Of a stretch of DNA of 64,000 bases, positions 19,695 to 27,684 are shown in pieces (the stretch's first letter is position 1; each line of letters opens with the position of its first letter). The position numbers and the translations under genes are program-made. Below the pieces are notes generated by a model. It was not told the origin of the DNA and did not search any database. It saw only the letters and a program-made list of their open reading frames with translations. Where the stretch lies: positions 62,001 through 126,000 of the forward strand of contig JAAVTG010000051.1 in the NCBI GenBank assembly GCA_011947345.1. The letters are read 5' to 3'. Source of the DNA: Phytophthora quininea. Lineage: Eukaryota; Oomycota; Peronosporomycetes; Peronosporales; Peronosporaceae.

Positions 19695-19867
19695 AAAGTG
19701 CACGGTTCGGCAAACCGGTCCAGCGGACCGGCGAACCGAACCGGATGTTTCCGGCTGCGGGAGAATGCACGGCATTCGCGAACTCGCCAGAAACACGCAA
19801 ACAGCTCGGAGCTGTTGGACTCGGAGTCCCCGTGCGAGAAGACAAGGGGCCGGGCCCCAGGAATTTT
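19695..19867 (+). repeat. Split direct repeat A1
   Basis: Identical to 26786-26958. It contains a compound hairpin (outer stem CGGTTCGG/CCGAACCG, inner stem CCGGTCC/GGACCGG, 19703-19743) and three 13-nt perfect hairpins with a single G centre: 19802-19814, 19817-19829 and 19846-19858. The Gag ORF ATG (19765) lies within it. Confidence 0.95.
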
Positions 19868-22850
19868 ATGGTGAACCCCCGGCGGCTATCACGCGCAGCG
19901 ACGCTCTGCGCAACCATCTCGTCCGCCTCGAGTGCCCATCGGAACTGGACGAGGGCGATTGGGACGGTCCCATTTACGCCCGTCTCCAGGAGCCTCGATA
20001 CATCACCAAAGACCACCGCAGCGTTTTCGTCGTGGATGACTCCTCGCGCACCCCAGGGTGGCTGTGCCAGCTGATATTCTACTCGGCCGACTTCGATTCG
20101 GATTTGTCCCGCCTCGGGGAGGCGGCGACACTGGCGACAACACCAGTCGTCATCCCCTACTCCCGGTTAACACGGCCGTCCGAGGCCCTCAGCATCGAGA
20201 CTCAAGACCGACCACTGCTGTTGCTCTTTCGTTTCCTACGATTTAGCACCTGCTATTTATCGTGCGGAACTCGCACATACCGCGAGGTTCAGCTCGACGT
20301 GTTTCTCACTGGCCAAGTTGTGGCGTATCTCCCGACGCGCGGTGCTACGTTCCTCGCGGCCACAGGTGCCAGCCTCCAACCTAGTTGTGGCTACATTTGC
20401 ATCGTGGCGTTGCGTGGCCACGTTGGCCTGCCACCCACGCATGTTGCGATTGCGTGCAACACGGCCTGGACACAACGCATCTCACGGGACGAATTTGTGG
20501 CGGGTTGGTGTCATGGCGTCTCCGCGACGGCCCAACCGTCTCGACGTTTAAGCCGATTTCGCTCACGGTGGGCGGAGTTGATTATTCCGGACGGTTCGGA
20601 CGATGAAGTCAAGAGGGTCCTCGATGAGACGTTTGTACCCACTGGATCTGACTCCACCATCGACTTCTGCCGAGAGGAACTGTGCATGGTGTCAGAATAT
20701 GGCAGGGTGGTCCACATCAGCCCACTTGGTTACGCACGGAAGTACATTGGCCCTGCTCGGGCTGCGACGCGGATGGATGAAGACATCGAGGTCGACCAGG
20801 AAGCACCTTCCGAGTTGTTGGCAATCGGGATGTCCCGTGGACGGCCACTTCCATCTCACGTCCCTGCCGTTGCCAGTCATGCGACTTGCCGGGACTTTGC
20901 AGCCTTTATGTGGCGCGTCGCGCCATCGGTGGCAACGGGTGCAAACATAGCTGCCGCTGTGGCTACCGTAACGAACGAAACGGCACCACGTGCCTCCCCA
21001 GAGGCCGCGCCTCTTCCGGATCCAGATTCAGTAGCAGATTCACCCGCTCGGACAGTTCGATATTCCTCGGAATCCACAGCGGTGGTCGCTTCTAGCGGCG
21101 CCATGGACCAACCTTCAGGCGTCCTCGCCGCCATCGCAGAGCTCACTAGGACGACGCAAATGGTTTTAACACAACAGGCGGCAGCTCAACAATCATTTCA
21201 AGAACTGCTTATCCAGCGCCTGGCGCCAGGTCAAGCAGCCCCGATTCCCACAAGCCAGGCACAGGCGACTTCCCCGACCGTACTGCCGGACACCACCGCG
21301 GTGAAACCAGTGTTCTCACCAGCGGATCTGACGGCGATAGAGGTCGCCAGCGTCGACGCGACCGCAGCCTGAGCCCACCACCACGATCACATCGTAGTGA
21401 CCGTCGTTCTCGCAGTCGTCCACGGAACGACTCGCATCATCGGGACCGCAGCAGGTCCAGGGGACGCGATCACGTCGGTCGAGTCGGATCAAATCGACAG
21501 ACGCACCGATCTCCACGCAACGGTGGACGTTCTCCGGGGACTCCCCGAGCCGACCGAGTCGGTGCATGGGATACACGTTTCTTACGCGACAACCGCGCCG
21601 ACGCGCGACCGGAAAGACACGATCGCTACGGTGATGTGTCCAGCCCCTTTCTGGGCTACACTTCGAGGAACCGCGAGGTCGAGGAGCCATACAGCGAAGG
21701 CCTACGCTGCCCGCGATCCGGAACTCAGTTCAGCGACTTTCGGTCTCCCCTTCGGGCGGCTCACGAACCGAGTTCGTTCCCACTTCGGGACTATGAAGCT
21801 CCTTTTCGTCGTGGACACACTAGCGGGGATGAATTACGTCTCGCTGACTACGCGAGAAACATGGAAACACCGATGGAACTAACGGGGACCGCTGGATTTC
21901 GACCGTCTCCTGCTGAGCTTCGCGTGCACCAGATTGCAAGAGTCGGACCTCGTCCGCGAGGTGAGTTTATCGAATCTAACTTGGTTTCTTTTTGGCAGAT
22001 GTCCGCTCTCGACCGGGTCTCAGCAATCCTCCATCAGGAAGCTCTCCGCGGCCGCGCTTATCGAGTGACCAAAGTCACGGCAAAAATGATTTTCTCGGTG
22101 GATTTTGGAACTCGGCCGTTGGATCACTTCCTCCCTCGTCCTGCTCTCGGCGACGGTAGCCGCACAGTTGTGCATGACTCCTCCACTTGGGCTTCAGGTG
22201 ACACTACACCAGAAGGTTACATCACTGCGATCGGCGATTTGCGACAAACCCTGCGCTGCATTCGAGGAGTGGCCGTCGAGTGGTACCCAGAACCTGTGGC
22301 CGACGTTTTTCCGCCGTTTACACCGACGCCTCCAACGAATTGCTCGACGAGGCCCCGACGCGACTCGTTCACGCCATGGTGAACTTGTATACCCATGTGT
22401 TTACACGTCTATTCTCATCGATTAGCCAAAACTACGAAGCCCGTCGTCTAGTCGGCCAAGCTCACGCTATCATGGCCCCGGACTCCACGGACTATTTCCG
22501 TATCGTGCGCCAAGTCATCGACCGGGGCTGTTCTCCACGTGGGCACAGGCTGAAGGACCACGCACCACCCACACGACGACTCGACTGACTGGCAACCGTT
22601 CCCGCTCTGGCCCGCAGCGCGGCGGCGCTAACCAGCGTAGACGCCAGACCGGACCAATCCCCGATAATATCTTACGCCAAATTCCACTGCAGGATCGGAA
22701 GAGCATATGTTTGCGGTTCCAGTCGCAAGGCGGGTGCGACTATCGCAGTTGCAAGTACCCCCACGTGCATATGCAGCTTCCAGAGGACGTGGCGACGTTC
22801 GTCATTGAAAAACACGGGCCGCTGGCAACCGGCCACCCCAATCTACCCGC
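19765..22850 (+). CDS. Gag-like protein of the Ngaro-like element, frameshifted
   Basis: Structural protein of the element. The first frame, 19765-21372, starts inside repeat A1 and ends in an Ala/Thr/Pro-rich region. The next frame (from about 21370) begins with an Arg/Ser-rich stretch (SPPPRSHRSDRRSRSRP) and runs to 22382. A third segment, 22280-22588, is helical. A fourth, near 22670-22850, contains a CCCH-like zinc motif (CLRFQSQGGCDYRSCKYPH) that would bind RNA. The frame changes may be sequence errors, as elsewhere in the window, or may partly define separate proteins. Family assignment comes from position upstream of pol and the RS-rich plus zinc-motif layout; no core Gag fold was recognised. 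Confidence 0.6.
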
Positions 22851-23044
22851 GTGACGAGACGCGGGCGAGCAGGAGACAGTTAGCTCGAATTCATATACGA
22901 CTTCAAATTCTGACTCTAGTTCGCCTCCTCCTACCGACGGTCAACCGACATCGGACGTTAACTGTCGCGGCATCATCACGCCGGACGTACTGATAGCAAG
23001 TCGATGCCAGCAACATTGTTGTTCCCATCGTCCACAACCGAACG

Positions 23045-25570
23045 ACACTATCGTACTAGCCTTTGATGGAGGGGCTCGTAACCCAGTCGCCAGCGCTCAT
23101 GCATACAGCGTCTGGACGGTTTCGTCTCGAAAACCACTATGGTGGTCGGCAACAACTCTATCCCCGGGGGAACAAACAACGAGATGGAAGCTCACGCACT
23201 GCTTAGCGGTGTCGAGTGGTTATACCACCACCATCGTCACACGCCAGTCCACATCATTGGCGATTCGGCAATCGTGATCGGTATGGCGACTTCGAACATG
23301 CGCGTCAAAGCATCCAACCTACGACCACTCGTCCGACAAATTCGTCAGCGGTTAACGTCACTACGGTGTGTCGGGCTCCACTCGGTCCCGAGAGCTTACA
23401 ATGTCACGGCGGATGCACTCTGCAACTGGGCCATGGATCACAATCGTGGAAGCGTTCTTTGTGGAGATCCAGCGTCATGCGACTGCCCTCTTCCGCCCGA
23501 TTGCCAACTCAGTCCTTTCGACATGGGCTGTTCCAAGTTCGCACAAATCCCACAAGCCGAGTACGACCAGGCCCAATGGTCCGCTCGCTGGTCGTTGGTC
23601 ATGCTGGACTTCAGGAGGGTCGAACACCTCGTCCAACATCGGTTTTTACAGCACCGCTTCGTCAATTTTCCCAGCGGATCGGCGGGAGAACCGGTCGCAC
23701 CCACGATAGACACTACTGCGAGCACCGAGTGCTCGCAGTTCGATACGGACATCCACCGGGAATGTACCGTCCACGGGATTAAACGCTGCTTACCCATCGG
23801 GGTGTTTCGAGCGTTCCAGTCGCTGGCGGCGACTCACCATATTTCGTTCCCAATCAATCGTATTTTTCGAACGCCAAATACGGAGCGACTTACGTTGCCA
23901 CTGGTGGATATTCAATTCTTAAGTGCTGTTACCCGACTTCCGTCGTACGGGATCGAGGGCACCCTCCGAGTTTTTCGAGGCCAAACGTCGCGCGATGGCC
24001 GGCCAAATAAGGCCTTACGATCGCGACTATATCGACGTCACCTGGCATCGTATCCCGAACTTGAACTCTTGTGCAGCATCGCAGAAAAAGGGGTAATCCC
24101 CCATTGGATTCACCCCGACAACCGGGTCGGAGTACGGCCGGTGCCCGCAAACTACCCCAGCGCACTAGCCGGTGCCGACATCGTCATTCATCGTCTCCTC
24201 AAGGACTACTACGCCGGGCGTTGTATCTTGGCGACGGTGACTGCTCTGATCACAGAGCCTGGGTTTCATTCGAGCGCATTTGCGCTGGTACCAAAGAAGG
24301 ATATTCCCTTGTCGGTGGACGGGAGAATTATCCATGATTTATCAGCTCCTCACGGATGCTCCGTTAACGATGCTACGGACACTACGTTGACTCCAGATGC
24401 ATCATGGGATCCATTCGCTAGCATTGCTCTTCGTGTTCTCGAGCTGCGGATCAGATACCCGGGATGTGCCATATATGCGCTCGTAGCGGATATAGCGGAA
24501 GCCTTCCATCACGTGCCTGTACACGCTCGTCATTCCCCGCCTTCGGGGGACCTTCCCACGATCGCAAATCGGCATCGTATCTGGGATGGCGGTATTCGGG
24601 TGGACAGCCTCACCAGGGTTTTTCGCCATAATGGGCAAGGCGTCAAGGCACTATCAGAGGACTGGCTGGTCTTACATTAACGGCTTCCCGGAACCGTTCT
24701 GGGTATTTCAATGGGTAGACGACATCGTCTTGATCGAAGTCAATATCGGAGATCGCCTACTACAGGCAGAACGACGTCTGCGAGATTCGGTAAAACTAGT
24801 TTTCGGCTCAGATGGATGGCATGAAGGAAAATTCCACACGTGGTCGCAACAAGTACATGCGGTGGGAATCGACTGGAATATTCCGGCAAACTCTGTCACT
24901 ATCCCCCAACGGAAGGTGGATAAAACAATACGTGTCGTCTCGGAAGCATTGGAGCAAAGGTTCATTACTGTGAAGCGACTAGATAGCATTATCGGAGTGC
25001 TACGCCACGTGATCACTTTCATCCCAATCGCGAAGCCGTTTATCCAGCGTCTGGTGGCCACCCAACTATATCTTAAACGCGCGAGCATGACAGGAACTCC
25101 GATGACAGAGAGCCTGAAGGCCGACCTCAGGTGGTGGAAGACACTGGTGTTCGAAAACGAATTCGCAGGCGTACCTATGACAATGTTTGGATCGGAACCA
25201 CCAGAAATCGACGGGTGGGTTATTGTACGCTACAATAACTTCATCACTACGTACGGGTTGACGCCGAAACGCCAACAACACTTCGGACCCTTGCATACGG
25301 TTACCGAAGCCGATATCGCATGGATAATCATGCAGCTTCTGGAGCATTGGGTAGCAGTTGACGATAATCACGACCACTGGACGAACATTCGGATATATGT
25401 ACGAAGTGCGTGGGAACAAAGCCTATTGACGTCAATGAGCAGCAGAGACTCGGAGGCCCAAGAATATCTCCGGCGAGTGGGGTTGGCACAAGCACGCAGG
25501 AAGCTGAGACTTACAGTGAACCGGGTTCTAGAGCGGACATCAGAGACCAGACCTTGTGATGTACACTCAC
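23045..25570 (+). CDS. RNase H - reverse transcriptase - degenerate RNase H polyprotein
   Basis: Domains in order. (1) RNase H of the RVT_3/archaeal-like type at 23045-23450: LAFDGGARNP, GGTNNEMEAHALL, HIIGDSAIVI, VPRAYNVTADALCNWAMD, so the acidic residues D-E-D-D are all visible. (2) DIRS-type reverse transcriptase: FALVPKKD...GRIIHDLSAPHG near 24280-24360, catalytic VADIAEAFHHV near 24490, FQWVDDIVLI near 24710. (3) At 25120-25560 the region where DIRS elements carry their RNase H (SSRDSEAQEYLRRVGLAQAR), but the expected acidic residues are not apparent (IYVRSAWEQ where an Asp is usual). Shifts near 23135 and 24540 are curable by homopolymer extension (A4 to A5 at the first). The role is copying element RNA and removing it from the hybrid. 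Confidence 0.85.
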
Positions 25571-25607: not shown

Positions 25608-26783
25608 ATGGAACAAATTGAGGAATCGACAGCAAGCCTCAAGAGAGCCTCTATCAATAACAGCTCCCTTAGAACGTACGAAAAACGTTTCCAGTACTGG
25701 AAGAACTTCTGTACCGAGTTTGGATTCCCTGTGTGGATCGACGACCTCAGTCAGGAGCGACAGGCACGAATCGTCGGCTTGTTCGCTGGATTGTGTGCCC
25801 TCGAAGGCCACAATAATCGGAAGCAAGGAAACAAATACCAGACTTTCGACGGGAAAATGGCCGCAGTCGCCTTTGCCCATAAAAGCGTGCGGAATGCAAG
25901 GCTCAGTTACAAGACTCCGGAATTTGAGCTCATTGCTAGAGGCTATAAGCGCACCAACAGCGGCGTGGAACGGAAACAGCCAGTCACCTCGCCCCTGCTG
26001 CTCGAGATGCACAGACAACTACAAAATGCGCGCTGCCCGGCCAACACAATAGAATCGGACATACTATGGGGATCGATCGTGCTGGGCTTCTTCTTCCTTG
26101 ACAGGAGCTCAGAACTCTGGGGGCCCATTACCAAAGACGATATCGCCGAAGGGGTATCTCACTGCGTGAAGGCTGCAGACGTCGTGCTTCGAGATCGGTA
26201 CGGGAAGAGAACGGAACCCGGGTTAAACCAGGCGATTTCGGTAGAGATCGTCTACAGATCACACAAGGGTGATCCGACACGGCAAGGGAATACGATACGG
26301 CATTACCGATCTGGGATACAGCTACTATGCCCGGTGGCAGCGGCAGAACTATGCCTTGAAGCAAGGAGACGACTACGAGACCAAGGAAAACGGTTGGGAC
26401 CGTACTTGACGTCATTGAGCAGTTCAAGGACCGTCACCAAAACGGCAGTTGCGAGGACAATCAAAGCCGCTGCAAAGGCAACGGGAGCAGACGCAGCCGA
26501 GTACTCCACACACTCCCTCCGAATCGGTGGAGCATGTGCTCTACTAGCCGCTGGGAAAAGCGAGCTCGTAATCAAGCTCATGGGGCGATGGTCGAGCTGG
26601 TGCTTCTCGGTGTACACCAAACTAAGACCGGGAATGCTGAAAGATGCAGCTCAGCACATGATTCAAGCATCAGCATGGGAGTACCCCGATCTAATCGACG
26701 GGCTACAAGGGGGACTGGGAAGCCAAGCTTCTCTAACTAATCAAGTGCTTGCCCCAACTTCGAGCCGTGATCGAGTGCACTAA
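25608..26783 (+). CDS. Tyrosine recombinase of the Ngaro-like element
   Basis: Site-specific recombinase that would integrate the circular DNA intermediate. ATG 25608 is chosen (MEQIEESTASLKRASINN); the frame is open from 25587. An N-terminal SAM-like core-binding region (RTYEKRFQYWKNFC) is followed by a catalytic domain with the full set: Arg in FFLDRSSELW, Lys in YRSHKGDP, HSLR (near 26510), Trp in GRWSSW and nucleophile Tyr in FSVYTKLRPG. It stops at 26783, 71 bp into repeat B1. It is the last ORF of the element and is uninterrupted, about 391 residues, so probably functional. Confidence 0.93.
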   Translation: MEQIEESTASLKRASINNSSLRTYEKRFQYWKNFCTEFGFPVWIDDLSQERQARIVGLFAGLCALEGHNNRKQGNKYQTFDGKMAAVAFAHKSVRNARLSYKTPEFELIARGYKRTNSGVERKQPVTSPLLLEMHRQLQNARCPANTIESDILWGSIVLGFFFLDRSSELWGPITKDDIAEGVSHCVKAADVVLRDRYGKRTEPGLNQAISVEIVYRSHKGDPTRQGNTIRHYRSGIQLLCPVAAAELCLEARRRLRDQGKRLGPYLTSLSSSRTVTKTAVARTIKAAAKATGADAAEYSTHSLRIGGACALLAAGKSELVIKLMGRWSSWCFSVYTKLRPGMLKDAAQHMIQASAWEYPDLIDGLQGGLGSQASLTNQVLAPTSSRDRVH

Positions 26784-26788
26784 GGAAA
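26712..26788 (+). repeat. Split direct repeat B1
   Basis: 77 bp identical to 27108-27184. Its last three bases (AAA) are the first three of A2. Confidence 0.95.
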
Positions 26789-26958
26789 GTGCACGGTTCG
26801 GCAAACCGGTCCAGCGGACCGGCGAACCGAACCGGATGTTTCCGGCTGCGGGAGAATGCACGGCATTCGCGAACTCGCCAGAAACACGCAAACAGCTCGG
26901 AGCTGTTGGACTCGGAGTCCCCGTGCGAGAAGACAAGGGGCCGGGCCCCAGGAATTTT
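26786..26958 (+). repeat. Split direct repeat A2
   Basis: 173 bp identical to A1 (19695-19867). Together B1-A2 recreates the sequence expected at a circular junction. Confidence 0.95.
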
Positions 26959-27107: not shown

Positions 27108-27184
27108 GGACTGGGAAGCCAAGCTTCTCTAACTAATCAAGTGCTTGCCCCAACTTCGAGCCGTGATCGAGTGCACTAAGGAAA
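27108..27184 (+). repeat. Split direct repeat B2
   Basis: Right end of the element, ending AAA at 27182-27184. Between A2 and B2 lie about 150 bp of noncoding sequence with three copies of a short motif (AGCGGGTTTGG/AGCGGGTTGGG/AGCGGGTTTAT). Confidence 0.93.
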
Positions 27185-27226
27185 TGGGAGATATTTTCGC
27201 TTTGACCCTAAATCGCTACATTTTAG

Positions 27227-27240
27227 CACTCATTTTTACG
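27227..27240 (+). promoter_or_regulatory. Inr-like core promoter of the RING gene
   Basis: CACTCATTTTTACG, an oomycete Inr-type CTCATTTT sequence 10-20 bp before the ATG at 27250 and about 45 bp downstream of the retrotransposon end. Confidence 0.5.
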
Positions 27241-27249
27241 GTCGACAAC

Positions 27250-27684
27250 ATGTCGAGCACCGCATGGCACTGCCCGATCTGTCTCGAGCGCTTCCAGTGG
27301 CCCGTGCTGGCCTCCTGCTGCGGCCAGAGCTTCTGTCAGGAGTGTCTCGATGCAGCTCTACTGCAGGTGGACGCGTGTCCAATGTGTCGCTCTCCATTGC
27401 TGTCTGGACCCTTTTCGGCCACTCCAAACCGAGCTCTCGAGGAGGCTCTGAAGACGTTGGCTCCAGCATCCCCCAAGGAACAACAAACAAAGGAAAGCAA
27501 GCGACAACTGGAAAGACTTGCTGCAGGGAGGAAAGAGAAATTTTTACGTCGAAAGTCGGAGCTGGGGATTCAAATCCGTGAAAATACGACCGAGGGTACT
27601 TCCTCTCGGACGTTGCTACAGGAAGAACGGGGGTTGGAGGGCTACCGTATTAGATGGACGGAAAGATTGCAAGCGGCGAGGTGA
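27250..27684 (+). CDS. Small RING-finger protein
   Basis: 144 residues from ATG 27250, which follows an Inr-like element. The frame is open upstream into repeat B2, but that part is transposon sequence. An N-terminal RING-type zinc finger spans residues about 8-49: CPICLERF, CCGQSFCQEC, CPMCRSPLL. In a canonical C3HC4 RING the residue in CGHxFC is His; here it is Gln, so zinc site 2 must use another ligand or be weakened. The rest is Lys/Arg/Glu-rich and probably helical (ESKRQLERLAAGRKEKFLRR). The likely role is an E3 ubiquitin ligase or scaffold, inferred from the RING only. Confidence 0.75.
   Translation: MSSTAWHCPICLERFQWPVLASCCGQSFCQECLDAALLQVDACPMCRSPLLSGPFSATPNRALEEALKTLAPASPKEQQTKESKRQLERLAAGRKEKFLRRKSELGIQIRENTTEGTSSRTLLQEERGLEGYRIRWTERLQAAR

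Follow-up and report, generated by a model that had tools for sequence, protein, structure and literature searches.

The stretch analyzed here, 64,000 nucleotides of contig JAAVTG010000051.1 of Phytophthora quininea (assembly GCA_011947345.1; hereafter, the window), carries between positions 19695 and 27184 a single 7.5-kb tyrosine recombinase (YR) retrotransposon with split direct repeats at its ends. The element encodes two domains of the ribonuclease H (RNase H) type, one of archaeal type (aRNH) that precedes the reverse transcriptase (RT) and a degraded one that follows it. Its features, some of them delimited by comparison with C363, an element of a second subfamily of the same genome, are the following.

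19695-19867, + strand: split direct repeat A1, 5' end of the element (173 nt, 100% identity with A2 at 26786-26958)
19868-22854, + strand: gag-like region in several frames, from the list of open reading frames (ORFs), with the Cys/His motif CLRFQSQGGCDYRSCKYPHVH at its end (ORF 22426-22854)
23050-23444, + strand: aRNH, probably acquired, with motifs FDGG, NNEMEA, GDSA and TADALC (RVT_3 and an aRNH hidden Markov model, HMM; a frame change lies inside)
23445-24143, + strand: linker plus N-terminal RT extension (FRGQT..RPNKALR); by eye, several sister YR families have a comparable RPNK stretch before their RT
24144-24548, + strand: RT, N-terminal half (64% identity to C363 over 135 aa)
24547-25188, + strand: RT, C-terminal half, with FQWVDDIV (68% identity to C363 over 214 aa)
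25196-25560, + strand: degraded RNase H, probably the native one, with V, D and R at the first three acidic columns in the window copy (from the alignment; fold from clade members)
25617-26681, + strand: tyrosine recombinase, with RSSEL, HSLR, GRW and Y (62% identity to C363)
26712-26788, + strand: split direct repeat B1 (77 nt, 100% identity with B2 at 27108-27184)
26786-26958, + strand: split direct repeat A2 (100% identity with A1)
27108-27184, + strand: split direct repeat B2, 3' end of the element (100% identity with B1)

Judged from its sequence, the element is a YR retrotransposon (order DIRS), encoding an RT, whose VDD motif lies within FQWVDDIV, and a predicted recombinase with the catalytic Arg, H-x-x-R and Tyr. 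Five single recombinase sequences gave no Pfam recombinase match; a profile of 11 YR proteins matched XerD (E 8e-4) and Cre (E 0.4), and in its rows H302, R305, R327, W328 and Y336 are invariant and R165 is nearly so. The repeat structure was examined in two of the 12 copies described below, those of the window and C363, and in both the order is A1-ORFs-B1A2B2, of the PAT/Ngaro/VIPER type, which is known for Ngaro, PAT-like and VIPER elements (PMC8547959, PMC6681497; here and below, statements on cited papers refer to the portions of their text available to us). The C363 repeats measure 162 and 70 nt and, as in the window, are 100% identical, suggesting recent insertion of both elements. No DIRS-type methyltransferase was matched by Pfam in the eight window frames scanned, which is weak evidence, and the gag-like region gave no Pfam match above cut-off; a Cys/His motif like the one at its end is seen by eye in C363 and in sister families. 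The element shares with Ngaro and PAT-like YR retrotransposons the RT, the YR with H-x-x-R and Tyr, and the arrangement of the repeats; those elements are described with an RT/RNase H ORF (PMC3783388, PMC8547959), whereas the present one has a degraded RNase H behind its RT and an aRNH in front.

The original prediction, made from the sequence of this locus, had placed an RVT_3/archaeal-like RNase H with all its acidic positions upstream of the RT, and this proved correct: the frame 23082-24680 matches Pfam RVT_3 (E 3.3e-9), all four named motifs (LAFDGGA, NNEMEA, IIGDSA and TADALC) are present, and the aRNH HMM built here matches positions 23166-23444 (7e-32). The first strand (LAFDGGA) is in a different frame from the remainder of the domain, so that the motifs are spread over two frames; in C363, the complete aRNH shares one 808-aa frame with the first RT half (RVT_3 3e-8). 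Sequence matches of the C363 aRNH in the PDB were M. tuberculosis Rv2228c (8e-8), LC11 RNase H1 (1e-4) and, weakly, Sulfolobus tokodaii RNase HI (0.02), and an R-x-x-N-x-x-A-D motif is common to the C363 domain, Rv2228c and LC11 RNase H1. The upstream domain has what characterizes an aRNH, namely a type I fold, the D-E-D-D residues and the active-site Arg.

At least 12 copies of the element were found in this genome among the matches listed, and they fall into three subfamilies: that of the window (C508, C588a and C527b), the C363 type (eight copies) and C517. The aRNH is present in all 12 (tblastn with five C363 pieces), and it occurs together with RT sequence in single proteins, as in C363 (with the first RT half), P0001, P0041 and P0042; a separate inserted gene, an outcome that would have spoken against the original prediction, is not what these copies show. 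The full acidic set is found in 11 of the 12, although in six of the 11 (window, C588a, C527b, C530, C588b and C517) it spans a frame break. The C830 copy (L019, L047), differing from the other 11, is decaying, with two aRNH acidic residues gone and stops present. The aRNH profile matches 40/40 loci of the clade and 0/28 loci of other YR families in this genome, while the profile of canonical C-terminal RNases H gives the reverse, 28/28 and 0/40; the 40 loci are overlapping cuts of the 12 copies, some rows of which also built the profiles, not all of them extend to the C-terminal domain, and 18 of the sister loci hold only 1500 bases before the match, barely reaching the place of the aRNH. Aside from these copies, aRNH-bearing frames recur every ~5.8-7.3 kb, like whole elements in tandem arrays, in C382 (4454-66881), C155 (19367-60679), C85, C775, C637 and C51.

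Relatives exist in other genomes. Protein searches found P0001 of P. nicotianae, P0002 of Nothophytophthora (a partial aRNH) and P0003 of P. megakarya (the gag-like part), and a further search gave P0041 (P. fragariaefolia) and P0042 in addition to P0001. The predicted protein P0042 (1022 aa, ENA) contains the aRNH, the whole RT and the degraded RNase H in one reading, and its model shows at residues 255-751 an RT fold that matches the RTs of CaMV, Ty3, HIV and MMLV; P0001 and P0041 hold the same three domains, with the middle of the RT disturbed. The C-terminal half of the RT, used as a query together with the domain that follows it, retrieved 37 proteins, 33 of them named Phytophthora and one labelled Phyca11.

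A tree of 36 RNases H joins all seven upstream domains, of which two are partial, in a single group (100/99). This group falls on the archaeal-type side, where two cellular aRNHs and those of other elements also lie, and is set apart from seven C-terminal RNases H of sister families with support of 100/100; the two cellular sequences were the only such rows, and 20 of 150 RVT_3 matches were fetched for the tree. As to the donor, grouping with the L078 set is supported by 53/71, and approximately unbiased (AU) tests rejected neither the L069 set (p 0.49), nor the two cellular sequences (p 0.73), nor L084 alone (p 0.27). L084 (C532), whose aRNH resembles that of the window by eye, and L078 (C56) lie on stretches that also hold an RT frame of non-LTR type (YADD); in the nearest set, L089 (C532) and L090 (C56) also show a non-LTR-like RT frame with YADD. 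The RT tree, from which near-identical rows were removed, splits the clade (27 rows, in only part of which the aRNH was seen) from sister YR families (10 rows) at 100/100. Because the aRNH is found on both sides of the split between the window and C363 lineages, its gain is probably older than that split.

The domain after the RT contains in the window SSRDSEAQEYLRRVGLA and IYVRSAW, as had been pointed out in the original prediction, and the alignment puts Val at the first catalytic Asp and Arg at the third. The Arg was correctly read but is not general in the clade, as it occurs at this position only in the window row and in P0005. Among 18 aligned C-terminal domains (six near-copies, C704, C530, C507, C527a, C588a and C527b, were excluded), the full acidic set is found in none: Asp-Glu-Asp is absent from the first three catalytic columns in all 18, the first column is non-acidic in 12 rows (V, R, T, Q, P or H), and R, K or W occupies the third in four. 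An intact acidic active site in this domain, the other outcome that would have spoken against the original prediction, was thus looked for and not found in these rows. An AlphaFold2 model of this domain alone, built from clade members alone, shows the RNase H fold minus its last helix, with a modest fold-match margin; the structure matches of the whole-protein model said little on this part. Comparing a profile of the clade domain (13 rows) with one of the canonical C-terminal RNases H of sister YR families (12 rows) aligned 119/120 columns at E 2e-4, with a Prob of only 20. In tblastn, the C-terminal piece of C363 matches the C363-type and C517 copies, with no match to the window subfamily at E 1e-3, and the link between the window and C363 domains rests on position and alignment (18% identity). 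What follows the RT is, in short, an RNase H fold without a complete catalytic set, as in a tether; the active RNase H that directly follows a tether of the retroviral type is absent there, the aRNH preceding the RT. The frame that comes after the domain overlaps the YR frame both in the window and in C363.

The two RT halves lie in different frames, with the same break point at a G-rich run, in all 12 listed copies. We regard a homopolymer or assembly artefact as likelier than recoding. Runs of six or more bases are depleted, strongly in the fetched loci (G5 125, G6 0; C5 162, C6 1; A5 85, A6 2; T5 92, T6 6, in loci that overlap and repeat one another) and less so in the window itself (G5 17, G6 3; A5 48, A6 6), which indicates that runs have been shortened, and hence other frame breaks of this genome may be artefacts as well. 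The predicted proteins P0004, P0006, P0010, P0017, P0025 and P0042 read through the break site; P0001, P0011, P0037 and P0041 are disturbed at it, which counts against an artefact. In some copies, the site resembles what we take to be a -1 slippery site. A programmed frameshift is nevertheless disfavored, since long homopolymers are nearly absent from the fetched loci and some of the predicted proteins read through.

The copies, the alignment and the tree support the replacement of an RNase H in a YR retrotransposon, with the new domain on the N-terminal side of the RT, as originally predicted. We consider it probable (roughly 0.8) that a YR clade of Phytophthora and its kin gained an aRNH between gag and RT and that its native RNase H decayed and became non-catalytic; it is a shade less probable that the exchange holds for the whole split-repeat YR clade, with the native domain turned into a non-catalytic tether. 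The gain would have preceded the separation of the window and C363 lineages, both of which have an aRNH of one group in the same place, and the native RNase H would have kept its fold but lost its catalytic set and, according to the models, its last helix. We infer catalysis by the upstream aRNH, which would remove the RNA template during reverse transcription, and a tether role for the C-terminal domain, which may remain within the RT for structural support or hybrid binding, much as the connection/tether does in retroviral RT.

Several observations weigh against this interpretation. The C-terminal domains of C363-type copies are acidic at the first three catalytic columns (E/D, E and E), thus keeping acidic residues at three of four catalytic positions, Asp occupies the first and the third column in C517, E or D occupies the uncertain Glu column in eight of 18 rows, and an alignment made without a usable C517 row shows a conserved CD(V/I)H displaced by about one column from the fourth Asp; a residual metal site is therefore possible in those domains. 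The upstream part is not seen in P0016, P0017 and P0025, which branch deepest in the RT tree, and the frames of the window copy itself are broken in the assembly. Amino-acid-changing rates are lowest in the RT and YR, higher in the aRNH and highest in the C-terminal domain, but synonymous sites are saturated in most comparisons, which makes this a rough test of selection. A division of labor between two active RNases H, in which the C-terminal enzyme uses an unusual acidic set, would agree with these acids and with the retained fold; given the non-acidic first column in most rows, the R, K or W at the third and the last helix missing from the model, we find it improbable. Ordinary decay of dead copies might be invoked in view of the broken frames of the window copy and the stops in C830. 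Yet the degraded state is common to several species, two of the elements have termini 100% identical, and RT, YR and aRNH change more slowly in the same comparisons, so that this explanation is very unlikely.

Least credible of all is a duplication of the element's own RNase H, for which the type I fold common to both domains could be adduced: the best PDB matches of the upstream domain are archaeal-type, and the tree places it among the aRNHs and separates it at 100/100 from the C-terminal RNases H of sister families, unless the long branch that divides them is misleading. The aRNH could instead do other work, on RNA/DNA hybrids of the host or in trans as a cleavage product, and the stretch that separates it from the RT is indeed poorly modelled (predicted local distance difference test, pLDDT, < 50 at residues 183-237). 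Against this, decay of the native RNase H accompanies the gain of an aRNH both here and in Tat elements, whatever the position of the aRNH (PMC10508981), which suggests functional replacement; we therefore hold other work to be unlikely. Replacement, with the new domain on the far side of the RT, would render ideas on why decay follows gain testable.

The gain of an RNase H and the decay of the native one to a tether have been described as a hallmark of how retroviruses arose from Ty3/Gypsy elements, and in retroviruses the new RNase H is placed after the tether. If our interpretation is true, this is the first such replacement known to us outside long terminal repeat (LTR) elements and retroviruses, and neither LTRs nor a DDE integrase are needed for the gain-then-tether route; its occurrence in a YR element, of another order, would point to a general tendency among retroelements with an RNase H of their own. 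Retroviral RT, lokiretroviruses and Odin elements likewise gained a second RNase H while the first became a tether (PMC9040795), but have LTRs and an integrase. Land-plant Tat LTR elements of structure #2 resemble the present element in having an aRNH before the RT and a degraded native RNase H, which in Tat decays at every aRNH position (Biryukov and Ustyantsev 2023, PMC10508981), and differ by their LTRs and integrase, in place of split repeats and a YR. Placement of an aRNH on the N-terminal side of the RT was thus already known, from these LTR elements. In the same host group, the oomycete Ty3/Gypsy elements Chronos and Archon acquired an aRNH and lost the native catalytic residues, but they are LTR elements and their aRNH adjoins the native RNase H (PMC5348765). 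Besides these two, Ustyantsev et al. (2017) list L1 and Utopia as oomycete elements with an aRNH; their survey retained only matches near LTR and non-LTR RT profiles and could have missed YR elements, and the terms "DIRS" and "tyrosine recombinase" are absent from the main text of the paper (PMC5348765). The available portions of the literature searched, which included few subscription papers and left out Repbase, where the family may be named, contain no report of a YR retrotransposon that has a second RNase H; this covers PMC6681497, PMC3266345, PMC8547959, PMC3783388, PMC9040795, PMC8775202, PMC3522703 and PMC12477816.

Two minor observations concern the surroundings and the interior of these elements. 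A RING-finger-like frame (CPICLERF..CCGQSFCQEC..CPMC) is found at window positions 27133-27684, starting just past the element's 3' end; the element may sit in the region upstream of this frame. In C363 (L091, 5049-5356), an 87-nt tandem repeat (29 aa, NAWLSESPVPGT) lies between the end of the gag-like region and the aRNH.
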